A stretch of DNA of 64,000 nucleotides. Origin: a bacterium HR28 (GTDB taxonomy: Bacteria > Chloroflexota > Chloroflexia > Thermomicrobiales > Thermomicrobiaceae). Shown here piece by piece: positions 35,057 through 58,833 of this stretch. The position numbers and the translations under genes were made by a program. The notes under the pieces are model-generated. The model was not told where the DNA came from. It searched no databases and saw nothing but the letters and a program-made list of their open reading frames with translations. Every line of letters begins with the position of its first letter. The first letter of the stretch is position 1. Location of the stretch: contig BEIE01000004.1 of assembly GCA_002898255.1 (NCBI GenBank), forward strand, positions 1-64,000, read 5' to 3'.

Positions 35057-35074
35057 CAGCTACCACCTCCACCC

Positions 35075-36988: not shown

Positions 36989-37002
36989 ATGCCCTCCTTC
37001 CT

Positions 37003-39098: not shown

Positions 39099-39433
39099 AT
39101 CTCATCCTCCCCCTCACTCCGGTTGGTCGCGATTTTGGCACCCTGCACGAGAGCCTCCTCGACCAATTGCTGGATCTGACTCTTCGGCGTGAACTCCTGG
39201 TGGTAGTAACCCAGCAACAGCGCGCCGGGAACCACGTCGCCCCAGATCAGCGCTGGTCCGGGACGGCTCTCTTTCGCTTCCCGCGCTTCAGGATCAGCAA
39301 CCTGGTGGAGCGGCACGATGCTCCGCAGAACCTCTCCATCCAGAGCCCAGAAGGTCAGCGGGAGAATGAGGCGATACGGCTGGCGCGGGAGAGCGTAGAC
39401 CGCAAACCACCCTGCAGCAGGAAAGAGCTTCAC
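39095..39433 (-). CDS. First gene of the late operon, unknown function
   Basis: A 112-residue protein starting at GTG 39433 with GAGGTG upstream, giving the N-terminus KLFPAAGWFAVYALPRQPYR. A longer frame would read through the promoter region of the divergent repressor gene. The C-terminus is charged (QQLVEEALVQGAKIATNRSE). The stop overlaps the TerS start. It could be a small assembly or regulatory protein; no family is recognised. Confidence 0.6.
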   Translation of the reverse strand: MKLFPAAGWFAVYALPRQPYRLILPLTFWALDGEVLRSIVPLHQVADPEAREAKESRPGPALIWGDVVPGALLLGYYHQEFTPKSQIQQLVEEALVQGAKIATNRSEGEDEM

Positions 39434-39524
39434 GGCACACCTCGCAAGATCCTGATACAATCGGTACCAGGGAAGGGAAGAGCTCTCGTACCGCTTGCGG
39501 GAGACGCGAGAAAGGAGAGGGACC

Positions 39525-39980
39525 ATGGCGAAAGAGCAGCGGGGAAAGCGCGTTCCACCAGAGGTCGCCGAGTTCGGGAAGATCCTCCGCCAGCTCCGTG
39601 AGCATTACGGTCTCTCCCAACACGAACTGGCCAGGCGTTCCGGTGTTCCCTACCACACGATCCATCGCCTCGAGGCGGGCCAGATCCCCAAACCCAGCTT
39701 CGACGATCTCGCCAGGCTGGCTCGGTTCTTCGGCATCGACCTGGAGGCGATGGGTGTCCTTCTCGGTCTCTGGGGTCCGGAGGAGATCCCCGCTGCTCTC
39801 GATCCCGAGCTGCACCAGTACTTGGAACAGCTACGACGTGTCGCGAGCAAGTTGTCTCCGGAGGAGCAGCATACCCTCGCCATCCAGTTGCGGCCTCTCG
39901 TCTCCTACTGGTCGCCGGAGAAGACGGCGCTTCCTGACTGGCTCCTCGAGTTGATCACTCCGCGCAAGGAGAGACTGTAA
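39525..39980 (+). CDS. XRE-family repressor candidate, divergent from the late operon
   Basis: A 151-residue protein with an N-terminal Cro/C1-type HTH at about residues 20-75 (GKILRQLREHYGLSQHELAR; VPYHTIHRLEAGQIPKPSFD) and a helical C-terminal half (ELHQYLEQLRRVASKLSPEE) suited to dimerisation. No LexA-like protease domain is present, so RecA-type cleavage is not expected. AAAGGAGAGG precedes ATG 39525. A TACAAT -10 candidate at 39456-39461, followed by CGGTACCAG, lies in the divergent region, with no clear -35. It is the best candidate for control of late transcription and lysogeny; the XRE protein at 10363 is the alternative. Confidence 0.82.
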   Translation: MAKEQRGKRVPPEVAEFGKILRQLREHYGLSQHELARRSGVPYHTIHRLEAGQIPKPSFDDLARLARFFGIDLEAMGVLLGLWGPEEIPAALDPELHQYLEQLRRVASKLSPEEQHTLAIQLRPLVSYWSPEKTALPDWLLELITPRKERL

Positions 39981-40014
39981 CGGAACCCCGCTGGTACCGC
40001 AACCTACCATGGGG

Positions 40015-40087
40015 CAGCCGGGGCAGGATTCGAACCTGCGTCGCAAGGGGTTAACAACCCCTTGCTCTACCACTGAGCTACCCGGCT
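40015..40087 (-). tRNA. Prophage tRNA-Asn (anticodon GTT)
   Basis: A full cloverleaf of 73 nt. The 7-bp acceptor stem AGCCGGG/CCCGGCT is perfect. The D arm is GCTC-AGTGGTA-GAGC, the anticodon stem AGGGG/CCCCT closes loop TTGTTAA with anticodon GTT, and the T arm is GCAGG-TTCGAAT-CCTGC with discriminator G. No CCA is encoded. It is transcribed with the small minus-strand gene group, antisense-adjacent to the repressor's 3' end. Confidence 0.93.
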
Positions 40088-40090
40088 CCG

Positions 40091-40303
40091 TCACTTCCGG
40101 CGACGTGGGTACTTGATGTTCACCAGCTCGGTCCGCCCACCTTCGGGACCCTTGCCTCGCATGACCGCGAAAGTGAGAACGGTTCCATCATCGAGCTTCT
40201 TGCTCCGGTAGCGGAGGACCTGTTTCTTGGGCGGATCCTTGTAATCCTCGACGATGTAATTCTTCGACTTCTCGATTTTTATCGGCTTCCGCTTCGTCGC
40301 CAC
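40091..40303 (-). CDS. Small basic hypothetical protein
   Basis: A 70-residue, very basic protein (ATKRKPIKIEKSKNYIVEDY; ends NIKYPRRRK) starting at GTG 40303 with GAGGGG upstream. Its stop is only 3 bp from the tRNA-Asn gene, so the two are probably on one transcript. It may bind nucleic acid. Confidence 0.6.
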   Translation of the reverse strand: MATKRKPIKIEKSKNYIVEDYKDPPKKQVLRYRSKKLDDGTVLTFAVMRGKGPEGGRTELVNIKYPRRRK

Positions 40304-40321
40304 AGCGCCACCCCTCTCTTC

Positions 40322-40699
40322 CTAGCGCGGTGCTGCCAAGATCAGTTGCAAGACCCTGCTCGCGGTCTGGTTCACGGGAGAGGAACTGGTTCCGCTTCTG
40401 ATCCTGAGGTAGCGGATACCCGCAAAGCGCCGAGGATCGATTTGGATGTACCAGGATGGAGCAACAGACAGAATGACCTCGTTTCCCGCCGCATCGTAAA
40501 GGTCGAACCAAGCGGTTCCGTTGATGGATGCCTGGAAGGTGATGGCCGTTCCATCCCAGGTGCTCGGCATCAGGATGCCGACCAGGGTCAATCCATCGAG
40601 GTCGATACCGGGGCTGAGGCTGGATCCCGAGGAGAGTGTGACGCTGCGCACCTCGGGATAGAACGCTGCGTACTCCAGATCAACGCGAGGACGCCCCAT
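40322..40699 (-). CDS. Phage decoration/head-fibre-like beta protein
   Basis: A 125-residue beta-rich protein with the pattern of a common small phage structural protein: LSPGIDLDGLTLVGILMPST, then ITFQASINGTAWFDLYDAAG, then IDPRRFAGIRYLRIRSGTSS and NQTASRVLQLIL. Proteins of this pattern are usually annotated as hypothetical phage proteins and may decorate heads or fibres. It starts at ATG 40699 after GGAGGG and overlaps the upstream gene by 20 bp. It lies away from the late block. Confidence 0.62.
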   Translation of the reverse strand: MGRPRVDLEYAAFYPEVRSVTLSSGSSLSPGIDLDGLTLVGILMPSTWDGTAITFQASINGTAWFDLYDAAGNEVILSVAPSWYIQIDPRRFAGIRYLRIRSGTSSSPVNQTASRVLQLILAAPR

Positions 40700-40910
40700 C
40701 AAAGCCCTCCAATCGGTCTCCTTGTGGTCGGTAACCGACCCACTGCTGCGACAGTTCCTCCCATGCACGGCGGCAATCGTCGGTATCAAACCCCATCACC
40801 CAGACACCAATCTGCGGTTCCGGGGTACCGATGAAATACGGTGTGCCGGGAATCGCTTCGAAAACCCAACCATCAGGTTCCACCCAGGAGACCGGCAGCT
40901 CTATCGTCAT
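40680..40910 (-). CDS. Hypothetical small protein
   Basis: A 76-residue acidic, Trp-rich protein (PVSWVEPDGWVFEAIPGTPY; DDCRRAWEELSQQWVGYRPQ). AAAGGAGG precedes ATG 40910. It overlaps the next gene's start. Family unknown. Confidence 0.62.
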   Translation of the reverse strand: MTIELPVSWVEPDGWVFEAIPGTPYFIGTPEPQIGVWVMGFDTDDCRRAWEELSQQWVGYRPQGDRLEGFDGASSR

Positions 40911-40935
40911 CGCAACCTCCTTTCCCGCAGAACCG

Positions 40936-41115
40936 TCAGAGCAGGTACCACACGAGGGCGACAAACGAGAGAAGGAGGAAGAGGAACGCCTGCACGAGGA
41001 CCAGCCTCTCGACGGTATCGAGGTAGGGGCGGTTCTCTAGGAGGAGCATCACGACACAGAAGATGAGCGACGAGAGACCGCATGTCCCCAAGAACAGCAG
41101 CAGCAACGGGCTCAT
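40936..41115 (-). CDS. Small two-span membrane protein
   Basis: A 59-residue protein with two hydrophobic segments (SPLLLLFLGTCGLSSLIFCV and LVLVQAFLFLLLSFVALVWY) joined by a short charged turn (ENRPYLDTVER). The start at 41115 overlaps the upstream stop (ATGA). It resembles small phage membrane proteins such as holin-like or superinfection-exclusion factors; function unproven. Confidence 0.62.
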   Translation of the reverse strand: MSPLLLLFLGTCGLSSLIFCVVMLLLENRPYLDTVERLVLVQAFLFLLLSFVALVWYLL

Positions 41116-41522
41116 GAGTCGCTCCACCCCAGGTCTTCATCCAGATCCGCGTACAGGAACCCTTCATCGGAGCCGAGTGCGGCAAAGGTCCAGCAGGACG
41201 CAGTGAGGAGGACCAGGTTGGCATCGTCGATCACCCTGCAGAGGTGCTGGAACCTCTCCTCGTTCAGCTCTGGTAGCGAGGCGCAGAGGATAGGGTGCTG
41301 GTCAGACGGCTTCTCGGGATCCTCGTACCAGCGGAGAGAAAGCCTCGCATCCGGGAACCAGTTCAGGATCAGGTTCGCCGCACCGCGGAGGTGTACTGGA
41401 AGATCCGGACATTCAGAGAGGGTGCGCAGCAACTCCTCTCCCCCCTCGACCTCGATACCGAAACGCAGAAGATCTCTCACTGCCGGTTCTGCCGCGTTGC
41501 AGCAGCTTTCTTGTGCGCTCAC
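41112..41522 (-). CDS. Hypothetical protein
   Basis: A 136-residue acidic protein starting at GTG 41522, which overlaps the upstream stop (GTGA). Leucine-rich helical segments (GGEELLRTLSECPDLPVHLR; RFQHLCRVIDDANLVLLTAS) and an acidic end (YADLDEDLGWSDS) are visible. No domain is recognised. Confidence 0.62.
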   Translation of the reverse strand: MSAQESCCNAAEPAVRDLLRFGIEVEGGEELLRTLSECPDLPVHLRGAANLILNWFPDARLSLRWYEDPEKPSDQHPILCASLPELNEERFQHLCRVIDDANLVLLTASCWTFAALGSDEGFLYADLDEDLGWSDS

Positions 41523-41689
41523 TTCTTCTTCTTCCGGCCCTTCCGCGCTAGCTCATCGAAGGACTTGCCATACTTCCGACGGCCAATCCAGGCCGCCAAA
41601 GCCTCGGGGTCCTTGACCCCTTTTCGCTTCAGCTGCTCCGTCAGCCGCTTGAAGCGCTCACCGCTGCCCAAGGGTGGCTTCTTGGTCAT
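41519..41689 (-). CDS. Small conserved-type phage protein (56 residues)
   Basis: A 56-residue basic protein beginning TKKPPLGSGERFKRLTEQLK and ending LARKGRKKK. The pattern PPLGSGxRF...KG...P.ALAAWIGRRKYG is familiar from short phage proteins of unknown role. ATG 41689 has a GGAGG-type site upstream, and the stop overlaps the next gene's GTG start (GTGA). Confidence 0.72.
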   Translation of the reverse strand: MTKKPPLGSGERFKRLTEQLKRKGVKDPEALAAWIGRRKYGKSFDELARKGRKKKK

Positions 41690-41701
41690 GGCGTTCCTCC
41701 T

Positions 41702-41983
41702 TCAGGTGTCCACACCGAACTTCCAGGACTCCGCTGGTTGCTCCAGCTCTGTGATGCGCGAGCTGACCAGGATACGGATGTCGTCCAGCGTCATGAGCAA
41801 GCAACGCAGCACGTATGCCTGCTCTCGCCCCTCTCGTTGCCGCGCACTCGCGAGGTACAGCGCGAACTCGCGTGCCAGAGCGTCCAGCTCTTCCTCCCAC
41901 TGGTCACGTACCATGTGCACCACCGTGCCCTCTTTCGCATGGAGCCGGCAATGCTCTTGCAAGTCGGTACCGTGCAGGAGCAT
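41702..41983 (-). CDS. Hypothetical helical protein
   Basis: A 93-residue helical protein (VRDQWEEELDALAREFALYL; YVLRCLLMTLDDIRILVSSR). The start is uncertain: the ATG at 41983 has a poor ribosome-binding site, and the Met at 41914 is an alternative. It is the most upstream gene of the small minus-strand group that ends with tRNA-Asn. Confidence 0.5.
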   Translation of the reverse strand: MLLHGTDLQEHCRLHAKEGTVVHMVRDQWEEELDALAREFALYLASARQREGREQAYVLRCLLMTLDDIRILVSSRITELEQPAESWKFGVDT

Positions 41984-42007
41984 TCCGGCGATCCATGACC
42001 ATTCCCC

Positions 42008-42036
42008 TTGTGAACAGACCGCCGTCTCGCTACACT
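42008..42036 (+). promoter_or_regulatory. Promoter candidate for the secreted cargo gene
   Basis: TTGTGA at 42008-42013, a 17-bp spacer, and TACACT at 42031-42036, about 49 bp before the ATG of the plus-strand secreted protein. A promoter of its own suits a gene expressed from the prophage (moron). Confidence 0.55.
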
Positions 42037-42084
42037 ACCGCCAGGCAGTCGCGAACAATTGCCTTTTCGAGAACGGGAGGGAAC

Positions 42085-43389
42085 ATGATGGTCACGTCTC
42101 GCAGAGGAGAGGCAGGGGTCGTCGCGTTACAAGTCCGTCGCAAGCAGCCCAAACGGCTCCCTCGCCTCGCCAGCTCGCGCCTGCTCCCTATCGCTCTCAT
42201 CATCGTCTCTTTCGCCGCCCTCTTCGCTCCCGGGACAGCCGCGCAGGAGTTCGTGTCCGCGCCGCCGCAGCCGGAGGGACTCAGCGAGGAGGTCGGGGAG
42301 ATCGGGTGGGGAGTCACCCCCGGAGCCATCTGTGGGCCATGGTTGCGCCCACCCCATGACCCCATGGCACTCTTTCTCCCTCTCGTTGCCTACGACGTGC
42401 CCGTCGCCGTCGGTCTGGAGACGGGCTGGGTCTTCGGGAGCGGAGGCTTTGTCCGGATCGAGCCGTATCGTGAGGGATACGCGCAGCTCGAGTGCCCAGT
42501 GAGCCTGGTCGAGGCACGCTATGTGGTCTACTTCGACAAAGGGCGCGTTGAACTCCCCTACGGGACCCTCGATACGGGCTGGATTCCTGTTGGCCGGCGC
42601 CAGATTCCTGTGAGGGACGACGTTCATGACGTCGCAGAATACCGGAGTGTCTGGGATCCGGAGCATCCGGCGTGGTGGATCGTAACGACTGGGAATCTAG
42701 CGCTGGAACTCCTCAGTGGGCAAGTCGAGGTCGGCATGAATCTGTACGTGAAGCGTGAGCCTGCAGCGATCTCCGTCGTCGGCGAGAGCGGGACCGGTAT
42801 CACGTATGCGGCACTCGGAAAGGTGATGGATGTCAGATGGCCACCATATTGGTCCAACGAAAATCCTGTCATCACCCGGACCCTCGATCCCACCGGAACC
42901 ATCGGGGAGGATCCCTCTTTGGAGCGCTACGGCGTCACCATCGTCTTCCCCCCTTTCTTCGGCCTGTCCGTGCCGTACTTGCCCCACGGTGTTGCCAGTG
43001 TCTTCTGGGACTACCTCCAGCGACCAGGGTGGGTCGCGACGGACATCCACTACGCGGGAGACTTCGATTTCACCCCGCATGGGAGTGACTATCGCTGGCG
43101 GTACACGCTGAAGGAAGGCGACCAGCGTCTCCCCTGGCTCTGGTTGGTTGGTGTACCGATCACCGATCCCTACTGGGTTCGGGCCACCATCGATGGTGTG
43201 GAACGCTGGATCCTCGTCCAGTGCTTCGAGAGACGGTGCATGAGCTACACGCCGGACAACCCGGAGGGCTGGCGCGTCGAGTTCACCAATACCGGTGCGC
43301 ACTACTACACCTGGCGCTATGGTCAAGCTCCGAGGTGGGCGGGAGTGCCGTGGGTAACGCAAATACGGGCCTACTCGCTGGGTGACTGA
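42085..43389 (+). CDS. Secreted cargo protein, FERRC/WRY family (paralogue of the 56837 gene)
   Basis: A 434-residue protein with an N-terminal signal segment at about residues 28-52 (LLPIALIIVSFAALFAPGTA, then AQEF as a likely cleavage region). The C-terminal third matches the protein at 56837: YGVTIVFP, VASVFWDYLQRPGW, LPWLWLVGVPITDPYWVRAT, LVQCFERRCMSYTPDNPEGW and AHYYTWRY. The PIT...FER pattern resembles domains in the endolysin and the glycoside hydrolase-like protein of this prophage. It has its own promoter and a downstream hairpin, typical of lysogenic cargo. Biochemical function unknown. Confidence 0.75.
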   Translation: MMVTSRRGEAGVVALQVRRKQPKRLPRLASSRLLPIALIIVSFAALFAPGTAAQEFVSAPPQPEGLSEEVGEIGWGVTPGAICGPWLRPPHDPMALFLPLVAYDVPVAVGLETGWVFGSGGFVRIEPYREGYAQLECPVSLVEARYVVYFDKGRVELPYGTLDTGWIPVGRRQIPVRDDVHDVAEYRSVWDPEHPAWWIVTTGNLALELLSGQVEVGMNLYVKREPAAISVVGESGTGITYAALGKVMDVRWPPYWSNENPVITRTLDPTGTIGEDPSLERYGVTIVFPPFFGLSVPYLPHGVASVFWDYLQRPGWVATDIHYAGDFDFTPHGSDYRWRYTLKEGDQRLPWLWLVGVPITDPYWVRATIDGVERWILVQCFERRCMSYTPDNPEGWRVEFTNTGAHYYTWRYGQAPRWAGVPWVTQIRAYSLGD

Positions 43390-43460
43390 GAGGGCGGCCT
43401 CACCTGGTGCGCACCGCTACACGAGACCGGAGCAGTCCATCCCGGAGCAAGAGGATGGTG

Positions 43461-43490
43461 CACTGGAGGGACCTTTTGGCCCCTCCAGTG
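43461..43490. terminator. Terminator-like hairpin between convergent cargo genes
   Basis: CACTGGAGGG (43461-43470) and its exact complement (43481-43490) with a 10-nt loop. It lies between the plus-strand gene ending at 43389 and the minus-strand gene ending at 43563, so it can serve both. Confidence 0.7.
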
Positions 43491-43562
43491 TGAACCCCTC
43501 ACCGCCTCACGTCACCGCTTACTCGCGTAATCGTTGACGAGTTACCCGGTTCCTGCTCCCTC

Positions 43563-45653
43563 TCAGGGCTGCATCCGGTAGACCTCCAAGACGCCACCGA
43601 CTTTTCCATCGACATGCACGTTGAATTCGGACTCCGCAGCGTGGCTCCGCGGGATGCCCGCGCCGAGGCGGATCAGCGGTGCATCCCAAGGCTCCGTGGT
43701 GGTCGTCGTGCAACCAGAGCTGGATCCCGGAGCGAGACCATTCGGGTGCTCGTAGCGCAGGACGCCTCTCTCGAAGTACTGTACCAGGTAGTAGCAAACA
43801 TTGGTGCCGATAGTCACCTTCTCAGAAAAGTGAGTCGATATCGGTCTCCCGAGGAGGGCAATCCGCTCCTGATCCGAGATACCAGCATCGCCGCGCTGCC
43901 GCCCCATGCGCGACACGTGATCAGTCCAGAAATGCCCACACACCTGGAAACCGCTCACGCTGTCGTAGTGCGGGCAGGCCGTCGAATCGCGGACTACCAC
44001 TGCGCTGTCGAAGGGATTCCGCTTCAGGGTTCCGTTGACGTTTCGGATGTAGCAGTTTCCAGGACCGGTGCCGCTGTCGCAGCGCAGGATCACCCGGAAG
44101 CGGCCAATCGTCTTGCCGGTGTCCTTGCACACCGTCGAGCCCGTCGATGCACAGAGATAGCCAACCTGGATCGCCCTGAGAAAACCGAACTCTTCGTTAG
44201 AGCTCTGCGTCTCGCTCAGGGCGCCCCGCTCCGTCACCAGCATCCAGCGGTTGAGCGAGGGGTTGAACCACCAGCCAAGACGGTTGCCGTAGACGTAGAT
44301 GGAACCACCGACGGACTCTGCTCCATCGGCAACGTAGTTATACACGCTGCACCCAGTTCCGGAGTAGAGACAGGCAGGATTGAAGCTGGCGCCGCTCTCC
44401 GGTATCCGCGCAAAGACGGTGTCGAGAAGAGCACGATCCAGGATGTATACGTTCCGGGAGAACCCCTTGCGGTAATCGCTGACGCGATTATTCGGATCCG
44501 CAGAGGCCTGGAACGGCCTCACAGGAGTGCTGAGGTTGTTACACTCCGCCTGCGTCACGACATCCGGGGAATTTTGCTGATACCAGCACCCAAGGGTGAA
44601 GAGAAGACCGAAAGCAATGTTGTTATTGGGATCCAAGAGCATCTCCCGGAGAGAATACCCCTTGACGATGCCGGGCTGACGCGTGCCACCGCTTCCCTCA
44701 CCGACGATGTTTGGGAGGCCCCAGCCGGTGAGATCCTGGACCGTTCCCACCCCCGTCTCGCCGACGTAGACGGTCTTGCTCCCCACCTTCTGCTTCAGGT
44801 ACCGCATCGTTTGAACAGAGTCGATTGGATAGGACAGTGAACCGTTGTAGAAGCGCTGATACGCATACACGTTGATCGAGAAGGCATCGAATCCGCTGAG
44901 GACACCCGGGCTACTGAACACAGCATCGATTTGGCTCTGCCGGGTGCTGTAGCTTGTGTCGGGAAAGCCAGAGACCGTTCCAGCAGCGAGGAAGACTCGA
45001 CTCGCGTTGGACCCGAAGTTCTGATTGATCCAGGTCCGCATCTGCGGAGCCAGATTGGCAAGGGTGTTCGAGTAGTCCCGAAGCTCTGCGATGATGTCAG
45101 TACGCAAACCATCGCAGTTCGCGTCGTACTCGAGGTCAGGCTCATTCCCGAGCTGGATGTAGACTACAACGCCAGTATCGGAGCCGAGGTAGGAATTCAG
45201 GCGCTGCACCAGTGTCGCTGTCGTCGTGTTGTAGGGACGCGACATCATCAGGCGACCCGTGATGAAGTTATAGGTCAGGGGAGAATGAGTAGGATCCGTA
45301 TCACACGGCGCATGTGCTCCGACGCGCACCACGAAGGTGCGGATCCCGTTCTGGTAGAGCTTATCGATGTCATCAGCGCGGAGATAGTTCGACTGAAAGT
45401 CACCCCAGACGCTGGCAACTTTTACGCCATAGGACCGGATGATGCCCATCTGGGTGTCGATGTGGCGGACATCGCCGGAAGGTACTTGACGCGACGCGTT
45501 GCCGAGAAACGGGGCAGTCAGGCCGATCTGGGTCGTCGCTGCTGCCTTTACCGCGGGAACCTCGCGCTGCGGAAGCGGCAAGAGGGCCAGTGCCGAGAGT
45601 GCAACGACAGCAGCCAGCAAGAGCGCCGAGAAACGGGCCAGACGAGACGGCAC
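43563..45653 (-). CDS. Secreted glycoside hydrolase-like protein (clan A-type TIM barrel), prophage cargo
   Basis: A 696-residue protein with a signal peptide (about 5-28, LARFSALLLAAVVALSALAL). Residues about 40-330 look like a GH clan A barrel: acid/base candidate E171 in YIQLGNEPDLE and nucleophile candidate E299 in TVYVGETGVGT, about 128 residues apart. A beta-rich middle region follows, with many Cys (ACLYSGTGCSVYNYVADGAE). Near the C-terminus (about 620-665) is the LLGRPIS ... YFERGVLRYEHP type domain shared with the endolysin. The GTG start at 45653 follows AAAGGAG. Substrate unknown; a surface polysaccharide is plausible. It lies between a terminator hairpin and the origin-like gap, as expected of cargo. 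Confidence 0.7.
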   Translation of the reverse strand: MPSRLARFSALLLAAVVALSALALLPLPQREVPAVKAAATTQIGLTAPFLGNASRQVPSGDVRHIDTQMGIIRSYGVKVASVWGDFQSNYLRADDIDKLYQNGIRTFVVRVGAHAPCDTDPTHSPLTYNFITGRLMMSRPYNTTTATLVQRLNSYLGSDTGVVVYIQLGNEPDLEYDANCDGLRTDIIAELRDYSNTLANLAPQMRTWINQNFGSNASRVFLAAGTVSGFPDTSYSTRQSQIDAVFSSPGVLSGFDAFSINVYAYQRFYNGSLSYPIDSVQTMRYLKQKVGSKTVYVGETGVGTVQDLTGWGLPNIVGEGSGGTRQPGIVKGYSLREMLLDPNNNIAFGLLFTLGCWYQQNSPDVVTQAECNNLSTPVRPFQASADPNNRVSDYRKGFSRNVYILDRALLDTVFARIPESGASFNPACLYSGTGCSVYNYVADGAESVGGSIYVYGNRLGWWFNPSLNRWMLVTERGALSETQSSNEEFGFLRAIQVGYLCASTGSTVCKDTGKTIGRFRVILRCDSGTGPGNCYIRNVNGTLKRNPFDSAVVVRDSTACPHYDSVSGFQVCGHFWTDHVSRMGRQRGDAGISDQERIALLGRPISTHFSEKVTIGTNVCYYLVQYFERGVLRYEHPNGLAPGSSSGCTTTTTEPWDAPLIRLGAGIPRSHAAESEFNVHVDGKVGGVLEVYRMQP

Positions 45654-45720
45654 GCTAGAACTCCTTTCGCAACCTCGCAGCCGGAACCGTTTGCCGCGGG
45701 TTTCAGTGGGGGCAGGTGCG

Positions 45721-45790
45721 AGCACCCTCAAGGGGCGCAAACAGCGCCAGGGGGTCGAAGACACTGGACCCAGAAACGGGTGAGGGTGCT
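45721..45790. repeat. Inverted repeat in the leader of the glycoside hydrolase gene
   Basis: AGCACCCTCA (45721-45730) and TGAGGGTGCT (45781-45790) are exact complements 50 bp apart. Flanking GCAGGTG (just left) and CACCTGC (just right) extend the pairing. On the minus strand it would form a long stem in the leader of the gene starting at 45653. Confidence 0.7.
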
Positions 45791-45846
45791 GATCCCACCT
45801 GCTTCGTATCGGGAGCGTGGGAATCCCGGCACCGGAAAGGCTCACC

Positions 45847-45868
45847 GACGGCTCCTGGCGGAGCCGTC
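45847..45868. repeat. End-palindrome family, internal copy
   Basis: GACGGCTCC-TGGC-GGAGCCGTC: a perfect 9-bp stem. The right flank CAGCAAC and left flank CTCACC resemble other copies. It lies at the left edge of the origin-like gap. Confidence 0.75.
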
Positions 45869-46157
45869 AGCAACTGCCGCTTGCTGGCACAAGCAGCGGC
45901 ATCAGTGCGTTTGGTGGCGCGATGGTGCTAAGGCGGTGGATTCGCTCCGGAGCAAGGGGAGGGCGGTGCCGGGATTTTCGGCTCCCATTAATATATGCAC
46001 GAGCCCGCGTTCCCGGGAGCCTTCGGAGCCGGGTTTCCGTAGTCAGAATTCCGCATCATGAAGCCAAAAACTGGGCGTTGACAGTCGCGTTCCCGGGGAG
46101 ATTTGCGTCGAGACGCGGAAATCACCTCAGCGCCGCGGGTGTCGGGAGATCTCGAGG

Positions 46158-46337
46158 GGTGTAATTTTGATTACACCTGGCAACGGGGTCGTCGCTACCG
46201 TTCCGCGGTGAGCAGAAGTTACCTAAGTTTCGACAGCGTTTACGCTGTCGATGTCCAGGGCTCCTGCCGGAGCCCTGTCCCAAGAGGGGAAAGCTCTGTG
46301 GTGGTGCTGCTTCGGTAGCTGCTCCTGAGAGCTACCG
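46158..46337. repeat. Cluster of four stem-loops
   Basis: Four hairpins in 180 bp: GGTGTAAT-TTTG-ATTACACC (46158-46177), CGACAGCG-TTTA-CGCTGTCG (46231-46250), CAGGGCTCC-TGCC-GGAGCCCTG (46256-46277), and GGTAGCT/AGCTACC around an 8-nt loop (about 46315-46336). The first three are perfect with 4-nt loops. Such stacks are typical of replication origins or regulatory RNAs. Confidence 0.75.
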
Positions 46338-46616
46338 TTTCCTGGCTCCTTCTGGGATTCCTCTGGGCCCATCGGAAACCATCTGGTAACAATGGGTATC
46401 GAGGATACCGGAGCTACCAGGATCCCTCTGGTCCGAAAGATCCTGGAGATGCCGATTGGTCCCAGAGGTTTCCTGGATTCCCATCGGTTCCTCTGGTTTC
46501 ATCGGTCTCTATGGATCCCTCTGGTTCCCTGGATACCAATGGAGCCATTTCTTCGGAGAAAACCCATATGGGTACCAATGGGATCCCAAGGATCCCTAGA
46601 TACCGATGGAATCCTA

Positions 46617-46676
46617 AGGGGTCATTGGTGGTTCCTAACGTATCTCAAGATACGTTAGGAACCACCAATGACCCCT
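46617..46676. repeat. 60-nt perfect palindrome (29-bp arms, 2-nt spacer)
   Basis: The left arm 46617-46645 and right arm 46648-46676 are exact reverse complements around CA. The arms begin AGGGGTCATTGG and the tip reads CGTATCT-CA-AGATACG. It can extrude as a cruciform or fold as a very stable single-strand hairpin. No gene overlaps it, and the transcripts of neighbouring genes do not end here, so a terminator role is unlikely. Confidence 0.92.
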
Positions 46677-46701
46677 GGTAGCTACTGGAATCCTAAGGCT
46701 A

Positions 46702-46820
46702 CCTGGATACCGATGAACCCATATGGGTTACAAGGGTCCTGGATACCAGTAGCCCCAATGGAATCCTAGGATTCCTGGATACCGGTAGCTCTCATGGAGC
46801 CTCCAGGATTCCTGGATACC
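46702..46820. repeat. 36-bp-spaced direct repeats (iteron-like)
   Basis: CCTGGATACC occurs at 46702, 46738, 46774 and 46811, that is, at spacings of 36, 36 and 37 bp. A further exact copy is at 46528, with near copies at 46472 (CCTGGATTCC) and 46595 (CCTAGATACC). Between the boxes are short palindromes such as AACCCATATGGGTT and AATCCTAGGATT. The regular spacing suggests an array of protein-binding sites. Confidence 0.85.
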
Positions 46821-46938
46821 GAGGGTTCCTCGACGCCCTCTTGGCCAATCGTCTCCAGCAGGCACCGGATTGCAAAGCAGCAGCTGCTCTCGTCTCCCGT
46901 GGCAGCTGTGGTTTTCCGGCGATTCCGTTTGCGACCCC

Positions 46939-46979
46939 TTGACATCTGGTTCCATCGGTGGGTATAATGCAACCGATGG
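46939..46979 (+). promoter_or_regulatory. Promoter and overlapping operator of the replication operon
   Basis: TTGACA at 46939-46944 and a perfect TATAAT at 46963-46968, spacer 18 bp. An inverted repeat CCATCGGT (46952-46959) / ACCGATGG (46972-46979) straddles the -10, so a dimeric repressor bound there would block transcription. The first gene starts at 47017. This is the best promoter in the prophage. Confidence 0.82.
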
Positions 46980-47016
46980 TGTTACGGCGGTGCCAAACGT
47001 ACCGAGGAGGGTGCAG

Positions 47017-47598
47017 ATGGAAGAGCGAACTCGGCGAGAGAACCGGAGCCTCCCGAGCATCCAGATTCGGACCAGGGGGCAGGTACAGCAGGTCTACCGG
47101 TACCGGGATGTCCTGAACCTCGCCTACCAGTACGGCCTGGTGGCTTTCGAGCAAGCAGCTCCCATCCAGGTGGTGATGGTTCCCTCGCAACGGGATCCGG
47201 AGCGGATGGTTCCGATGTTTATCAGCGAGGTGTACGCCATCTTCCGCAATGCCGATGGTTCGCTGGTTCGCTTCCATGGGGTTGGCGATTGCAGCTACGA
47301 GAATGCGCAGCCGAATGTGGCAGCAGCGGGACCACGAATGGCTCATACCAGGGCGAAGGCTCGGGCTCTCGCGGATGCTCTGAATCTGGATGCCAACCTG
47401 AGCGAGGAGTTCGACCTGAGTGACGAGGGAGCGACGGTTGCTGCTGACTCCGTGAGCCGTGGTTCCGGAGCGAGCAAGCAGGTTCCTGCTGAACCGCGCT
47501 GCTCTCGTTGCGGGTCTCCGATGAGCCAGCGGAGTGCTGAGTACTCGATGCGGATCCGTGGTGATCTGGTCTGCTATCGATGTGCAAAGGGGTCCTGA
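47017..47598 (+). CDS. Annealing-protein-like conserved phage protein with C-terminal zinc ribbon
   Basis: A 193-residue protein. The segment GSLVRFHGVGDCSYENAQPN, then ARAKARALADALN-like (TRAKARALADALNLD), resembles phage recombination or ssDNA-annealing-type proteins with the pattern GD-(A/C)S-x-EN ... TRAxARALR. The C-terminus holds a zinc ribbon (CSRCGSPMSQ ... LVCYRCAKG). GAGGAGGG precedes ATG 47017, about 40 bp after the promoter. It is first in the replication operon, so it is made early. The family link is by eye; Erf/Sak-type activity is a hypothesis. Confidence 0.6.
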   Translation: MEERTRRENRSLPSIQIRTRGQVQQVYRYRDVLNLAYQYGLVAFEQAAPIQVVMVPSQRDPERMVPMFISEVYAIFRNADGSLVRFHGVGDCSYENAQPNVAAAGPRMAHTRAKARALADALNLDANLSEEFDLSDEGATVAADSVSRGSGASKQVPAEPRCSRCGSPMSQRSAEYSMRIRGDLVCYRCAKGS

Positions 47599-47599
47599 G

Positions 47600-48451
47600 G
47601 TGCGTGACCCTGTGCTCGAGGCTCTCCAGCTGATCGAGGTTCTGCACGCTCACGAGGACGGGATCCGCACCCTCGACCCCAAGGGCTACCGGCGGACCCT
47701 TCGTGACCTGGAGCGTGCACTCCGCGAGGCTTTCCCGAGCTACCAGGACAGGATCCCGGAAATCGTCGCGGCTCTGCAGGGTGGCAAGAAGCCGCTTCCG
47801 CCGCGCTGGTGGGAGGGAGGTTGGCAGATGACGACGCCGTCTCCGGAGGAGATCCTCCTCTCGGTGTTCCTGGGGCAACGGGATCCTCGCTACCTTCCCG
47901 AGGATGCGTTGGACCCCCTGGCTGATGCCTACCGCGAGTACCTGCGTGGTTCTGAACTCCCTTCGCCGGAATCGCCGGTGCTCTTCGGGCTCAGTCTCGT
48001 TGTGGACGCGTTGCTCTGGGGCTTCCACCGGTTCCGGCTCTACCGCAACGGCAGGCTGGTGGGAATGCGCGAGCTGCTGCGCGAGAGGTTCGCTGCCGAC
48101 GAAGCGCTGGTGGATGGTCTCGCGCTGCTCTCCCGGCGCTGCGAGGAGATGGGCTGGGAGCAGCGTTTGGCTGCCTTTCTCGCCCTCCCGGGGGCAGCAC
48201 AGCTCCTGGATCAGATCCTGACGCTCTATGGCGATCTCCTGGTAGCCAAGGGCGTCGAGAGGACACCGGTCCTCCCACCAGCACCGGTTCCTGAGCGCGA
48301 GACGCCCTGGTTTCGCCGCAGACTCCTCCAGGTCTACGCAACGGTTGGTCACGTTGGTTTTGCAGCCCGCGCCCTCAGGATCCGGAAGGCGCGGGCATCC
48401 GCGCTGATTCGCGAGATGGAGGCGAAGGATGGCAAAGAAGCGGCAGCTTGA
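47600..48451 (+). CDS. Replication-operon protein with C-terminal HTH-like region (initiator candidate)
   Basis: A 283-residue helical protein starting at GTG 47600, 1 bp after the previous stop. The C-terminal 35 residues (QVYATVGHVGFAARALRIRK then ARASALIREMEAK) look like a DNA-binding HTH. Its place beside the iteron-like region and before the helicase module makes it a candidate replication initiator. It overlaps the next gene by 23 bp. No database family is recognised. Confidence 0.55.
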   Translation: MRDPVLEALQLIEVLHAHEDGIRTLDPKGYRRTLRDLERALREAFPSYQDRIPEIVAALQGGKKPLPPRWWEGGWQMTTPSPEEILLSVFLGQRDPRYLPEDALDPLADAYREYLRGSELPSPESPVLFGLSLVVDALLWGFHRFRLYRNGRLVGMRELLRERFAADEALVDGLALLSRRCEEMGWEQRLAAFLALPGAAQLLDQILTLYGDLLVAKGVERTPVLPPAPVPERETPWFRRRLLQVYATVGHVGFAARALRIRKARASALIREMEAKDGKEAAA

Positions 48452-49085
48452 GGGTTCACCGATTGCTGGCACAGCCGTCGAGGGTGCAGGAGCGACGTTG
48501 TTTCCGGAGCTGGAGGGTGAGGAGTTACCGAGTGCCGTTGCCATCGGCGCTGGTGCAGCGTCTGCTGGTGCGGAGAGCGATGATCCCAAGCGGGATCTCC
48601 TCGAAGCGTTTCTCCCGGATATTTTCACGTCGGACCACGTTGACTGGCTCTGGGATTCCTTGAGCATCCTCGGTCAGTTCGCCCCAGAGGAGTTGCAGCG
48701 CCTCCAGGTGGCGACGCTTCTGCTCATTCTGGAGCGACAGTACATGATCCTCGAGGAACTCAAGCGCCTCCGCTGGGAGGGCAAGGCGCATCGCAGCGAG
48801 AGCGGTCCAAAGTTCCAGCGCAACGGGGGGCAATCGCGCTCCTCGGAGGGCTTCGACGCCACCTACTTCCGAGAGCGGATCCTGCGGGAGTTGGGTGAGG
48901 AACCAGACGACCAGACGCTGGAGGTGCTCCTCGCTCTCGCTGGCGAGCCGGGAAGACTGGACCGCGCCATCACGTCGACGAAGCGGTATGTGGAGCAGCA
49001 CCAGGTGGCGAAGCCGTTGGGGTTTCTCGTCGCGAAGTTGCGGAGTTGGCGCGAGGAAGACCGCTCCCGCCAGCACCTCCGGTAG
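48429..49085 (+). CDS. Helicase-loader-like protein (position-based)
   Basis: A 218-residue protein: a flexible Ala/Gly-rich N-terminal third (EGAGATLFPELEGEELPSAV), then helical domains (EELQRLQVATLLLILERQYM) and a C-terminal domain (TLEVLLALAGEPGRLDRAIT; KPLGFLVAKLRSW) of the size of DnaD-like or loader domains. It immediately precedes the DnaB-like helicase gene. The function is inferred from gene order only. Confidence 0.5.
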   Translation: MAKKRQLEGSPIAGTAVEGAGATLFPELEGEELPSAVAIGAGAASAGAESDDPKRDLLEAFLPDIFTSDHVDWLWDSLSILGQFAPEELQRLQVATLLLILERQYMILEELKRLRWEGKAHRSESGPKFQRNGGQSRSSEGFDATYFRERILRELGEEPDDQTLEVLLALAGEPGRLDRAITSTKRYVEQHQVAKPLGFLVAKLRSWREEDRSRQHLR

Positions 49086-49130
49086 CGGCGATAGGCGGTG
49101 AGGGTCCGGTCTGAGGGCGAGGAGGCTTCC

Positions 49131-50987
49131 GTGGGCGTTTGGCGCGTCGCGAAGGGGATTCTGGAGCAGGAAGAACGCTGGGTAGCGTCTCCATGCCAGC
49201 CACGCGGTGTTCCGACGGGTCTCGCTGGTCTGGATGCCCTGACCCACGGACTCCGTCCTCGTGAGGTGACGCTCCTCGCGGCGAGAACGAGTCACGGGAA
49301 GTCGGCTTTGGCACTGACCATCGCAATCAACGTCCTGAAGTGGGAGATTTTGCAGAGCCTGCGTGAGGGGAAGCGTCCTGGACGGGTGCTCTACCTTTCG
49401 CCGGAGATGCACCCTGAGCAGCTCCTCATGCGTCTCGCCTCTGCCGAGAGCCGGGTGGATCTCGAGGTCATCCAGGATGGCATCGCGCTCCCGGAGCAGC
49501 GGCGGCGATGGAGAGAAGCGCTGGCGTCGCTGGAACCCCTCGACCCGTATCTGATCATCGAGGGTGGATATGGGATGGATATCGACGACGTCGAGTCCTC
49601 AGTCAGGAGTCTCCACGCGGAGCACCCACTGGTTCTGGTGGTGATCGACTACCTCCAGCGTTTGAGCTACGGCGTCGTCGATGACGACTACCGACGCCTC
49701 TCGCTGATTTCACAGACCATCAAAGATCTCGCTAACGAGACGGGGATTCCGTTTCTCGTGGTCTCGCAGCTCAATCGGCAGATCGAAAAGGACCGGCACC
49801 AGGGCGACAGGATGCCTGATCTCTCGGATTTGCGTGGATCCGGAAGACTCGAGGAGGATGCAGACAACGTCTGGATCCTCTGGCGTCCACCGAAGTTGTC
49901 GACTGAGAGCGCGTCGGCACCGCAAAGCGCCAAACTCCTGGTTGCCAAGGCCAGGAGCGGCAAGGTCGGCGAAGTGGACCTCTGGTTCTACCCGCGGATC
50001 GTCTCCTTCGTCGACTCCGGTTCCGGGAAGGTTCGCGCCGATGGTGGGCTGTCTCTCCACTCTGTCGCGGGTGAGCCGCTGCCGACTCTCGTGGAACTGG
50101 CGCTGATGATGCAGCAGGGGAGGATGGGCAGCGAGGCGCACTCTCGGGAGGGAGGGGTGGACGGTGGCTTCCAGTCACCGATGACTGGTGGAATCGGTGA
50201 GTCGTGTGCTGTCGAGGAGTCCACTGCTGCTCCGGTGGCAGGTGGCGGGATACCTCAGGGAACCGTTGCTGCTCCGGGTGACGCATCGTCCAGTCACCGG
50301 CCCTCTCAGGAATCGCTGGTGATCCGAGAGGAGCCGGTGGTGGATCGTGCAACAGGAAACCGCGGCGACATTCTGAAGAGACTCGATGTTCTCGCGGCGG
50401 CGTTTGCATCCTGGGGCAGCGAGGAGACACCGAAGCTCGGCGGAGCCGTCGGCGAGCCAACGGTTGCTGGCGGGTCCGTTGGCCGCCTGGAGGGCAGTGT
50501 TCGCCGCTTGCGGGAAAAGGGGGTGGCGGGTCGCCGCTTGCTGGTGCAGTCGTTTGGCGATTCCACGGAGACGACGCCGCGTCTCGTCCTCTGGAACTGG
50601 TTTCCAGAAGATGGCGGTGGTGCATCGGTGCCTGAGGAAAGGCGGGAGAGCGGCGGGAGGAGGGGGCCGCCGAGGGGGCGGAGGCGAGGTGCGGATTTCG
50701 AGAAGCGCCTGGCCAGACGCCTCGGAGGCTATCGCTGGCCTGGTCTGGATGGCGATATCGAGATACCGCAAGGATGGCGCATCGAGTGCAAGTACCGTGA
50801 GGGCCTGGTGCTTGACAGCCGCAGTGAACTGAGGTATTGGTTAGAACAGTTGTACGGGTACGCCAAGCGATGGGGACCGGAGAAGCGCTGGGCACTGGCT
50901 CTCACTGGTGGACGTGGATACCGGAAAGGGGCGGTCTACGTCCTGATGCCGCTGGAGTTCTGGTGGGAGCTGGTATGCGCTACGTGA
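49131..50987 (+). CDS. DnaB-type replicative helicase fused to a PD-(D/E)xK nuclease-like domain
   Basis: A 618-residue protein. Residues about 25-300 form a RecA-fold DnaB helicase core: GVPTGLAGLDALTHGLRPRE, Walker A TLLAARTSHGKSALALT, Walker B LVLVVIDYLQRL, and SQLNRQIE ... DLRGSGRLEEDADNVWIL. The DnaB N-terminal domain is missing. A Gly/Ser/Pro-rich linker (about 310-520) leads to a C-terminal domain with GADFEKRLARRLGGYRWPG, then D542 and E552-C-K554, the PD-(D/E)xK layout of Holliday-junction resolvase-like nucleases. The GTG start at 49131 follows GAGGAGG; a GTG at 49098 is less likely. The fusion suggests a helicase that also cleaves branched DNA. Confidence 0.82.
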   Translation: MGVWRVAKGILEQEERWVASPCQPRGVPTGLAGLDALTHGLRPREVTLLAARTSHGKSALALTIAINVLKWEILQSLREGKRPGRVLYLSPEMHPEQLLMRLASAESRVDLEVIQDGIALPEQRRRWREALASLEPLDPYLIIEGGYGMDIDDVESSVRSLHAEHPLVLVVIDYLQRLSYGVVDDDYRRLSLISQTIKDLANETGIPFLVVSQLNRQIEKDRHQGDRMPDLSDLRGSGRLEEDADNVWILWRPPKLSTESASAPQSAKLLVAKARSGKVGEVDLWFYPRIVSFVDSGSGKVRADGGLSLHSVAGEPLPTLVELALMMQQGRMGSEAHSREGGVDGGFQSPMTGGIGESCAVEESTAAPVAGGGIPQGTVAAPGDASSSHRPSQESLVIREEPVVDRATGNRGDILKRLDVLAAAFASWGSEETPKLGGAVGEPTVAGGSVGRLEGSVRRLREKGVAGRRLLVQSFGDSTETTPRLVLWNWFPEDGGGASVPEERRESGGRRGPPRGRRRGADFEKRLARRLGGYRWPGLDGDIEIPQGWRIECKYREGLVLDSRSELRYWLEQLYGYAKRWGPEKRWALALTGGRGYRKGAVYVLMPLEFWWELVCAT

Positions 50988-51595
50988 GACTGCCAGATGA
51001 GGATCTCGAAGCGCTCCGGAGAATGGCGGCTGACATCGAGGAGTCGAAACGGCGGTACCCCACTGTGGATTGGGGCGTGGACAGCCTCGAGTCCCGGTTC
51101 CTCTCCCTCTGCGCGGAGCGCTGTGTCGCCGTGCTGCTGGGCTGCGAGCACGAGGTCGCGGTGCTGCCAGCTGGCGACGGCGGGGTGGACCTGGTTCTCC
51201 CGCGGGAGACACGTTTCGGCAGAACCGTCGAAGTCAAGTTTCGGAGGTCGCGGAAGACGGATCTGGCGACGGCATCCCTGCGTTTCTGGGAGGAGCTGGT
51301 CGCGGACATCTACGTTCTCGTCTGGCCAGCTTGCGAACAGGGGTGGGAGCCGAACCAGGGATTCACCGTCGTGGGCTTCGCGACCAAGCGCCAGTTCCAC
51401 GAGAGGATCCTCGCCAGGCCGCCGATCCGCATGAAGGGAGAGAAGTGGGAGATACCCTGGCAGGATCTCCGGCCCATCGAGGTACTGATACAGGAGGTTC
51501 GCGATGAAGCCACGCATCGGGATCGCCGGGAAGTCGGGATCAGGGAAGACGACGTTGGCCGAGGCTCTGGCAGTGCTCTACGACCTGCCGCGTGA
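50975..51595 (+). CDS. PD-(D/E)xK nuclease-like protein
   Basis: A 206-residue protein whose centre reads LPAGDGGVDLVLPRETRFGR then TVEVKFRRSRKTDL: an acidic residue, a strand, then E-V-K, as in PD-(D/E)xK nucleases and DUF-type restriction folds. The start ATG 50975 overlaps the helicase-fusion gene by 13 bp. It runs 92 bp into the dNMP kinase gene in another frame, so the last 30 residues may be an extension. Its role may be in replication or recombination; specificity unknown. Confidence 0.6.
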   Translation: MRYVRLPDEDLEALRRMAADIEESKRRYPTVDWGVDSLESRFLSLCAERCVAVLLGCEHEVAVLPAGDGGVDLVLPRETRFGRTVEVKFRRSRKTDLATASLRFWEELVADIYVLVWPACEQGWEPNQGFTVVGFATKRQFHERILARPPIRMKGEKWEIPWQDLRPIEVLIQEVRDEATHRDRREVGIREDDVGRGSGSALRPAA

Positions 51596-52004
51596 CAGTT
51601 TCGCTGCGCCGATCCGTTGGGCTCTCCAGGAGCTGGGAGTGCGTCCACCGTATCCGCGAATGCTGATGCAGCGCTTGGGGCAGTCTCTCCGCGAGTACGA
51701 CGAGGACCATTTCGTGAAACTCCTGGAGGAGCGCAACCCTGGTCTCCAGGCCAGCGGTCTCGTGATCGACGATGTTCGCTATCCCAATGAGTTCTGCTGG
51801 TTGCGCGAGAAGGGGTTCATTCTGGTCTACCTCGAGGGGAGCTTCCGTCCACTGGAGGGTGAAGAGGCGGCACACGAATCCGAGATTGCTCTCTCCCGCG
51901 ATGCCTATCCCTTCGACTTGGTCCTGCCAGCTGGGACCTCCGTAATCCAGCGCGTGGCGGCAGTGGCACGGGTGCTCCGCTCCGGATCGGTAACCGTGGC
52001 GTGA
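51504..52004 (+). CDS. Deoxynucleoside monophosphate kinase
   Basis: A 166-residue P-loop kinase: Walker A at residues 7-16 (GIAGKSGSGKTTLAEAL), a substrate-binding segment (RDSFAAPIRWALQELGV), the DDVRYPNEF motif, and AAHESE, all typical of phage dNMP kinases that supply dNTP precursors. CAGGAGG precedes ATG 51504. It lies just before the polymerase gene, consistent with local dNTP supply. Confidence 0.85.
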   Translation: MKPRIGIAGKSGSGKTTLAEALAVLYDLPRDSFAAPIRWALQELGVRPPYPRMLMQRLGQSLREYDEDHFVKLLEERNPGLQASGLVIDDVRYPNEFCWLREKGFILVYLEGSFRPLEGEEAAHESEIALSRDAYPFDLVLPAGTSVIQRVAAVARVLRSGSVTVA

Positions 52005-52013
52005 GGTGGTTCG

Positions 52014-54059
52014 ATGTGGAGCTACGCACTAGTGGAGACGCTACCGGAACTACCACCGGGGATACTGTCTCTGGATATCGAGACCACTGGTCTCGACTAT
52101 CACCGCGACTCCGTCGTCGTCATCACCGTTGCCAGCCCAGAACAGGCGTGGGTGGTGGATTGCCGGAGGATCCCCCGGGAGGCAGTGGCGTCGTGGCTGC
52201 ATCGGCTCTTTCGAGAGCGCAAGGTCATCATCCACAATACGCTCTTCGATGTGGCGTTCCTCGCTACCGCGTATGGGATCGCCGAACCGGCTGCAGGTTC
52301 CATCTGGGACACCAAACTGGTGGAAGCGGTTCTCGAGGGGGGGAGGGACGAGGGGTGGCGCGACTTTTCGTTGCGCCATCTTTCCGAGAAGTATCTCGGC
52401 CTCTCCCTCGACAAAATGTGGCAGTCCAGTTTCGCGGCAGACGGCGACCTCAGCGAAGAGCAGGTTCGCTACGCCGCCTATGATGCGCTGGTTCTCCACG
52501 GGATCCAGAGGGAGCAGGAGCGACGTCTCCGCAGTACACCTTCGCTTCTCCGTGTCGTTGCCCTGGAACACCATGCTGTTCGGGGATTCTGGGAGATGCA
52601 ACGCCGTGGCGTGGGGGTGGATCTCGCGGTCCTGGAGCAGGAGCGGCAGCGCTGGGAGCGGGAAGCATCCGCGCTCCGGCAACGGCTGCAGGGGCGCCTG
52701 ACCCGTCGCATCATCGGTGCGCGAGAGGCCAAGCTCGCGGAGGCCGAGGAGAGGCTCCGGCTCTGGAATGAGGCTCTGGAGGCAGAACTGGCTCGGCACG
52801 AGAGCGTGTGGCGTGCCGGTGTCGCGGATCCATCCTGGGTCGAATCTCTCCGACGCAATTGGCTGGGGTACCAGGTAACCGAGAAGGTAACCGTCGATGA
52901 TGCGGAGATCCTGAGCTGGCTGGATCCCGAGAGGGGCCTCCGTCGGTACCTGCAGCGAGTCGGGCAACGTTTCCGGCGCGAGAATCCCAGGCCACCGCGG
53001 CCACGAGTCGATATCCTAGCTCCCATCAATCTCCTCTCCGCACAGCAGCTTCTCGAGGCCCTCAACGCGGAACTCCAGGAGGCGGGGATCCCTCCCATCG
53101 CCAATACCGAGGCGAAGGTGTTGCGGGGCCTTTTGGGGATGGACGAGGATCTGGACAGTAACGTCCTGCGCCCTCTCCTGCGCTACAAGGAACTCGAGAA
53201 ACTCCTCGACTTTGTAGAGCAGATACGAGAGCACACGAGGGAGGGGAGACTCTACCCCGACTGGCAACCAATCGGGGCCGCCACTGGAAGGGCATCCTGC
53301 CGCAATCCCAACCTTATGGCGCAGCCGAAGGCGGCGGGATTCCGGAGGGCATTCGTCGCCAGGGATGGGCATGTCCTGGTGACCGCAGACTACTCCCAAA
53401 TCGAACTTCGCATCATGGCAGCACTGTCTGGTGATCCGGAGATGACTCGAGCCTTCATCGACGGCCTGGATCTGCATCGCCTTACTGCCTCGCGGATTTT
53501 CGGCATCGCAGAGGAGGAGGTGACGGAGAAACAGCGGAAGATCGGAAAGCAGGTGAATTTCGGAACGCTCTATGGGATGGGTCCTCGCCGCCTGGTCGCG
53601 GAGTTGGCTGCCCAGGGTATCAGGATTTCTCTCGAGGATGCGCAGGCAGCTCTCGATGGATGGAGACGCACCTTCTCCGCAGCCGCTGCGTTGATCCGGG
53701 AGTGGGGAGAGAGGGCTCTCCGCGACGGTTACGTGGAGACGGCATTGGGGAGGCGCAGGAACTTCGCGGAACCATCCGATGGCTCCGAGGCCGCTGCGGT
53801 AGCCAGGAGAGGTGGGAACCTGCCGATCCAGGGTACAGCCGCCGACATCATGAAGCTCGCGATGGGAGAGCTAGCCGGTACGGGGCTGGTTTTACAGGTC
53901 CACGACGAGTTGGTCGTCGAGGTTCCAGAGGAGGATGCCGAGGAAGCGGCATGGCGGATCCAGGAGACGATGCGCCGCTGCGCCGAGGCAGTCCTGGGTG
54001 GTTTCCCGGTGCAGGTGGATGTAGCCGTTGGGGCAACTTGGGCGGAGGAAGCGGAATGA
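52014..54059 (+). CDS. Family A DNA polymerase with 3'-5' exonuclease
   Basis: A 681-residue polymerase. The proofreading domain is complete: Exo I with D21 and E23 (SLDIETTGLDYH), Exo II with N75 and D79 (NTLFDVAFL), Exo III with D157 (YAAYDAL). The 5'-nuclease domain of Pol I is absent. The polymerase domain shows motif A (D459 in DYSQIELRI), motif B (RKIGKQVNFGTLYGM) and motif C (VHDELVVE, D631). It starts 9 bp after the dNMP kinase stop and overlaps the next start (ATGA). It is the phage replicase. Confidence 0.95.
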   Translation: MWSYALVETLPELPPGILSLDIETTGLDYHRDSVVVITVASPEQAWVVDCRRIPREAVASWLHRLFRERKVIIHNTLFDVAFLATAYGIAEPAAGSIWDTKLVEAVLEGGRDEGWRDFSLRHLSEKYLGLSLDKMWQSSFAADGDLSEEQVRYAAYDALVLHGIQREQERRLRSTPSLLRVVALEHHAVRGFWEMQRRGVGVDLAVLEQERQRWEREASALRQRLQGRLTRRIIGAREAKLAEAEERLRLWNEALEAELARHESVWRAGVADPSWVESLRRNWLGYQVTEKVTVDDAEILSWLDPERGLRRYLQRVGQRFRRENPRPPRPRVDILAPINLLSAQQLLEALNAELQEAGIPPIANTEAKVLRGLLGMDEDLDSNVLRPLLRYKELEKLLDFVEQIREHTREGRLYPDWQPIGAATGRASCRNPNLMAQPKAAGFRRAFVARDGHVLVTADYSQIELRIMAALSGDPEMTRAFIDGLDLHRLTASRIFGIAEEEVTEKQRKIGKQVNFGTLYGMGPRRLVAELAAQGIRISLEDAQAALDGWRRTFSAAAALIREWGERALRDGYVETALGRRRNFAEPSDGSEAAAVARRGGNLPIQGTAADIMKLAMGELAGTGLVLQVHDELVVEVPEEDAEEAAWRIQETMRRCAEAVLGGFPVQVDVAVGATWAEEAE

Positions 54060-56261: not shown

Positions 56262-56279
56262 GAGCGAGGAGGAAAAGAC

Positions 56280-56768: not shown

Positions 56769-56777
56769 TGGAACGAT

Positions 56778-56816: not shown

Positions 56817-56836
56817 TGTCCAGAAAGGGTGATCGG

Positions 56837-58830: not shown

Positions 58831-58833
58831 AGT

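Follow-up and report, generated by a model that had tools for sequence, protein, structure and literature searches.

What does the 1.3-kb non-coding region between the two gene arms of this prophage do? The initial annotation of the window (the whole 64-kb stretch of DNA analysed here) saw in it a phage replication origin with iteron-like repeats, a long palindrome and stacked hairpins beside a replication operon. Its description of the layout holds: no ORF inside the region is recognised as a gene, genes for a DnaB-like helicase, PolA and a TOPRIM primase lie to the right, and the coordinates given for the palindrome and the four hairpins are correct (Table 1). Its interpretation stands in part. 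Judging from sequence, this may be the replication-initiation or early-control region of the phage, with a protein-coated array and a palindrome whose opening would be helped by divergent transcription, a reading to which we give slightly less than an even chance.

Prophage and gene neighbourhood

The prophage is integrated in a selenocysteine tRNA gene (3053-3149), and its att sites correspond to the 3' part of that tRNA (left, 3078-3149; right, about 58829-58902). The left att matches the free viral contig L013, while the tRNA 3' part is repeated at the right end; with att located there, an attP/att reading of the non-coding region was rejected. The left arm carries structural, lysis and terminase genes, and a gene for an HTH regulator lies at 39495-39980. 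A packaging-site reading of the region was also set aside, the terminase genes being at 37.0-39.1 kb. A tRNA-Asn gene is found within the prophage at 40013-40087, and a tRNA occupies the matching place (2954-3025) in the 54-kb viral contig L006. The large leftward gene at 43563-45653 (696 aa in L006), which has no family and a signal-like N-terminus, adjoins the non-coding region in both the window phage and L006.

The right arm reads rightward from 47017, with three genes of no functional family followed by helicase, polymerase and primase. No known initiator family was recognised for the genes at 47017, 47600 and 48429, and structure predictions for the first two proteins were of low confidence and uninformative, the model of the 47600 protein (pLDDT 64) having no fold match. 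We infer that the 47600 product is a candidate array-binding protein; the third product is a candidate helicase loader by position only, and the first could, at a guess, be a single-strand annealing protein. Within the same class, but in a different family, a protein for which no Pfam or NCBIfam family was found (L042:1501-1677) has a TRAKARALADA-type motif in common with the first gene. The fusion of the helicase to a PDDEXK/RusA-like domain also occurs in L006 and in the relatives L007 and L021; a tie between this nuclease domain and the palindrome was rejected, because the same domain is present in relatives that have neither palindrome nor array.

Table 1. Positions of the prophage, its putative control region and the adjacent operon in the window
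Feature	Position	Strand	Basis or remark
Prophage in tRNA-Sec	3078..58902 (about)	.	att match and repeat of tRNA 3' part; integrase family matches
Tyrosine integrase	3220-4422		family matches
Non-coding divergent region, from leftward gene 43563-45653 to rightward replication operon	45654..47016	.	ORFs; synteny with L006 and G025
Conserved block: GCCGGGATTTTCGGC, CGTTCCCG (twice), GAATTCCGCATCATGA, CGCGGAAATCACC, hairpins	45964..46290	+	alignment of window, G025 and L006
GGTGTAATTTTGATTACACC, operator-like inverted repeat (first of the four hairpins)	46158..46177	+	identical in window, G025 and L006
Hairpin TCGACAGCG-TTTA-CGCTGTCGA	46230..46251	+
Hairpin CAGGGCTCC-TGCC-GGAGCCCTG	46256..46277	+
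Hairpin GGTAGCT-GCTCCTGAG-AGCTACC	46314..46336	+	read from sequence
Array of alternating GG and CC, usually GG-(A/T)2-3-CC, signed period 9.4 bp	46338..46840	.
Perfect palindrome (60 bp), 29-bp arms, centre CA	46617..46676	.	centre TG in L005/L013
Four exact CCTGGATACC boxes	46702..46820	+	fifth exact copy at 46528
Consensus sigma-70-type promoter, TTGACA-18-TATAAT	46939..46968	+	at end of non-coding region
First operon gene, 193 aa, C-terminal zinc-ribbon-like end	47017..47598	+	predicted model, pLDDT 56
Second operon gene, 283 aa, no family, predicted mostly helical, HTH-like C-terminus	47600..48451	+
Third operon gene, 218 aa, no family	48429..49085	+
DnaB-like helicase C-domain with C-terminal PDDEXK/RusA-like nuclease domain	49098..50987	+
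Family A DNA polymerase (PolA)	52014..54059	+
TOPRIM DNA primase	54665..55552	+

A periodic array of GG and CC words

The boxes reported by the initial annotation are real: CCTGGATACC occurs exactly at 46702, 46738, 46774 and 46811 (spacings of 36, 36 and 37 bp) and again at 46528, with one-mismatch copies at 46472 (CCTGGATTCC) and 46595 (CCTAGATACC). All five exact copies in the 64-kb window are on the + strand of this region, and when the array was dinucleotide-shuffled 500 times, no 10-mer reached five copies (four copies, the most obtained, were seen once). "Iterons", though, names the wrong unit, as these boxes belong to a wider array with a 9.4-bp period, of which they form the most regular part. 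Nor is that array an ordinary tandem repeat: tandem-repeat calling picked out only 46737-46821, at period 36 and 2.3 copies.

Over a core of about 500 bp, GG and CC switch about every 4.7 bases, with 4-5 bp from GG to CC and 9-10 bp from GG to GG, recurring at 18-20, 28 and 37-38 bp. The signed GG/CC signal peaks at 9.40 bp, a strength equalled by none of 1000 dinucleotide shuffles, and the parts on either side of the palindrome are both periodic (9.35 and 9.05). The array thus described comprises about 50 short boxes, each with two-fold symmetry, and contains nested direct and inverted duplications; the bases inside GG-n-CC are 86-98% A/T in arrays versus 62-64% in host DNA. Its score of 32 in 300-nt windows is the strongest in the window, against at most 14.6 in a 200-kb sample of host DNA, and no comparable array was seen in the other loci scanned. 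A high-alternation stretch at host locus L034 was set aside for lack of the periodicity, and a host repeat family was rejected because the rest of the host genome contains no match to the array and palindrome of the window.

Such a sequence could also work as a highly folded strand, in the form of a structured RNA or a single-stranded DNA element, if the array were transcribed or exposed. Single-strand folding is indeed strong relative to dinucleotide shuffles (z-scores of -4.3 and -3.9 in the window and -8.4 in the sister prophage G025), and the hairpin at 46256 has a compensatory counterpart in L006 (CAGGGCTGC-TGAC-GCAGCCCTG, one C-G to G-C swap). However, alternating GG and CC words boost pairing on either strand regardless, so folding strength does not tell a DNA element from an RNA one. 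A search for promoter-like sites directed into the array found none, and Rfam gave only sub-threshold matches in the region, mostly to miRNA-type hairpins, with no family match; we regard a folded-strand function as very unlikely.

A palindrome with a flipped centre

The arms of the palindrome are perfect, as the initial annotation had it, and enclose a 2-nt centre. The next longest perfect hairpin arms are 13 bp in the window and 16 bp in nine 20-kb host stretches. Across 45500-47000 the window differs from L013 only at 46290, by a one-base gap at 46293 and in the palindrome centre (CA versus TG). An inversion of the centre would give the change from CA to TG, two substitutions being the alternative.

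In L006, which has three perfect hairpins of 48-54 bp with 19-22-bp arms, hairpins 2 and 3 have 10-nt loops that are reverse complements of each other (TCTCCGAGAC and GTCTCGGAGA), and the stems of these two carry compensatory changes. The hairpin at 46230 has TTTA as its central four bases in the window, against TAAA in G025. Since template switching at hairpins leaves loop inversions and compensatory stem changes (PMC8794818), the flipped centres and loops argue for folding of these sequences in vivo, either as single strands or into cruciforms. The sequence of the palindrome itself is not kept in G025 or L006.

Conservation of pattern among related phages

Four phage genomes carry the array at the same place, two of them nearly identical: the window phage, L005/L013 (almost the same as the window in the array region), G025 (in a host of the same genus) and L006. 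Between the window and G025, 45713-46277 is 83% identical, and GGTGTAATTTTGATTACACC, which occurs once in the host genome, is unchanged. The G025 array, with a period of 9.45 over about 1.1 kb, does not align with that of the window apart from one 27-bp match. L006 has a weaker array at 9.9 bp, its score of 17.5 lying near the top of the shuffles (best shuffle 16.7). Among these related phages the pattern is kept while the letters are not, as would suit a site of replication start or control that evolves rapidly.

The array is absent in four more distant relatives with the same operon (L007, L008, L021 and L022), whose first-gene proteins are about 55-62% identical, and therefore a replication module of this kind does not in general require it. 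These relatives keep a hairpin-bearing non-coding region of their own there, with compensatory stem changes, so that the position is kept while the array is confined to one subgroup. L007:7380-8003 and L021:5280-6003 have highly conserved elements in common (TCCAGCGTGCTGAGCG; CGCTGACTTCCC...GCGCCGATTTGACCGGCAGTCGGGG), whose stems show compensatory changes and for which Rfam gave no match. Scans of genome collections for relatives found none, and class- and phylum-wide searches found no additional array-bearing phage. As a DNA query against the host genome the G025 array gave no match, in a type of search that is blind to a grammar without sequence.

Could the array be a functionless mutational by-product, grown from a short palindromic seed by local duplication, inversion and template switching? 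Its quick turnover, the nested direct and inverted duplications, the life of four relatives without it and the loop inversions, which are footprints of template switching (PMC8794818), would all be expected. On the other hand, two arrays that do not align agree in period (9.40 and 9.45), in A/T-rich box centres and in place, and the window copy is almost unchanged relative to L013, whereas the gene to its left differs by 8-14%. GG/CC positions in the G025 array also mismatch less than positions elsewhere (0.13 versus 0.27), a weak point as a flank control gave a similar ratio and the selection test is hence not decisive. We consider an array without function improbable.

Replication origin or control region

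The origin reading of the initial annotation draws support from gene context, the promoter, a sign change in skew and the presence of the array in four phages; against it stand the phasing of the repeats and the lack of an AT-rich element, DnaA boxes and a known initiator. As at iteron origins, clustered repeated sites lie beside replication genes, here between divergent gene arms and directly before the helicase/PolA/primase operon. Plasmid iterons are generally in phase with the helix (PMC5043065). Here, in contrast, the period is 9.4 bp rather than about 10.5 bp or its multiples, and the box spacings of 36, 36 and 37 bp equal 3.4-3.5 turns, about half a turn off, which puts the boxes out of helical phase. 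The region contains no AT-rich opening element, its richest 40-mer (60% AT) lying over the palindrome, and no DnaA box within one mismatch. No intrinsic terminators were found.

GC skew turns positive near 45-46 kb in the window, and G025 and L006 show the same change at the corresponding place. At fourfold sites the right arm has positive skew and the left arm values near zero or mixed, with mostly negative ones at 3-11 kb. The maximum of the skew is at att, not opposite the region, and the right-arm skew follows the gene strand; this is not the profile expected of symmetric theta replication from the region. Next to attR, 58424-58830 holds a cluster of repeats of about 30 bp, each with a short hairpin (e.g., GAGTCACCGTCTCCTTACGGAGACGTTGAC), whose stems vary in matched pairs (GTCTCC/GGAGAC, GGCTCC/GGAGCC and GGATCC/GGATCC); these are possibly arm sites for integrase or excisionase, or a rival origin. 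It is this evidence on both sides, the rival cluster included, that keeps our reading of the 1.3-kb region as an origin or control region tentative.

The array may instead serve transcription control only, as an operator bank or enhancer for early promoters that is bound by a phage regulator, while the origin lies at another site. The perfect promoter of the window is overlapped by array-type words, in that the inverted repeat CCATCGGT...ACCGATGG flanks the -10, and they recur at the -10 in G025 (GGTTCCG...CGGAACC); the conserved GGTGTAATTTTGATTACACC inverted repeat is operator-like, and the cluster at 58424-58830 could be the origin. Yet about 50 units in 500 bp is far above usual operator banks, and the HTH regulator gene is not adjacent. 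Control without initiation seems to us rather unlikely.

A possible mechanism

If the region does initiate replication, a phage DNA-binding protein from the adjacent operon, probably an oligomerising dimer, could coat the GG-WWW-CC array. As 9.4 bp is less than one helical turn, successive bound units would shift round the helix, favouring a wrapped filament over binding along one face. Transcription leaving on both sides, from the leftward gene and the rightward promoter, would make the region negatively supercoiled; transcription activates the lambda origin even from promoters directed away from it (PMC5043065). Negative supercoils would in turn favour extrusion of the 60-bp palindrome as a cruciform, or its melting, in place of a classical AT-rich element, and the DnaB-like helicase, TOPRIM primase and PolA of the neighbouring operon could load at the opened palindrome. 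The array-type words around the -10 suggest that the same protein may repress its own operon.

In its most specific form, this proposal makes the array a nucleoprotein scaffold set by a spacing grammar, in which symmetric GG-(A/T)2-3-CC boxes every 9.4 bp are rebuilt in each lineage by duplication and template switching, and the wrapped filament opens a palindrome-based rather than AT-rich origin. We think it unlikely that all of this is right. Should the array work as proposed, a replication or control site could be conserved by a periodic pattern while its letters turn over, and searches based on alignment would miss such sites; the palindrome, furthermore, would give GC-rich DNA a means of opening. 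That the palindrome centre is flipped between two copies otherwise almost identical is a trace, open to direct testing, of hairpins or cruciforms forming in a phage genome.

Comparison with known systems

Among temperate phages, the N15-type hairpin telomere telRL is likewise a long near-perfect palindrome of similar size. The palindrome described here belongs to a tyrosine-integrase prophage at tRNA-Sec and is not retained in G025 or L006. A hairpin telomere was rejected, as no protelomerase was found and the att duplication of tRNA-Sec together with the integrase shows chromosomal integration.

Like the parS site of pSM19035, which is bound by dimers of omega (ParB), the array is an unbroken run of contiguous short boxes (PMC9499535), and it could accordingly be a partition site, bound by a ribbon-helix-helix (RHH) or similar protein, for a phage kept as a free circle. 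A contiguous array of short symmetric boxes is what an RHH centromere would present, and fast evolution is possible for centromere-like arrays. The repeats of parS are heptads, however, as opposed to about 50 boxes at 9.4-bp spacing, and no RHH or ParA partner was found in the prophage: a genome search with PF01402 (RHH_1), the sole RHH family searched, yielded three sub-threshold hits, all of them outside the prophage, and ParA, ParM and TubZ were lacking among the proteins scanned (part of the ORFs). Because the phage integrates, it also has no obvious need for partition, and we judge such a role highly improbable.

The origin of PLE, the ICP1 satellite, is, like our region, a non-coding part of a mobile element with several repeat types (PMC7145576). 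Part of the PLE non-coding region is needed for replication, and its iterons contain internal inverted repeats (PMC7145576). PLE has a recognisable RepA_N initiator with iteron binding shown, whereas no initiator family was recognised for the region described here.

The initial annotation did not recognise the pairing of iterons and a palindrome from a known phage origin, but the lambda origin also has a hyphenated palindrome beside its iterons. Four 19-bp iterons lie inside gene O in lambda, with a 40-bp A+T-rich region, as against some 50 short boxes in non-coding DNA here, with a 9.4-bp period, no AT-rich region, fast-diverging sequence and no recognised O or P homologue. Lambda too is a phage with two-fold-symmetric repeats beside its replication genes and an origin activated by transcription (PMC5043065), as may be the case here.
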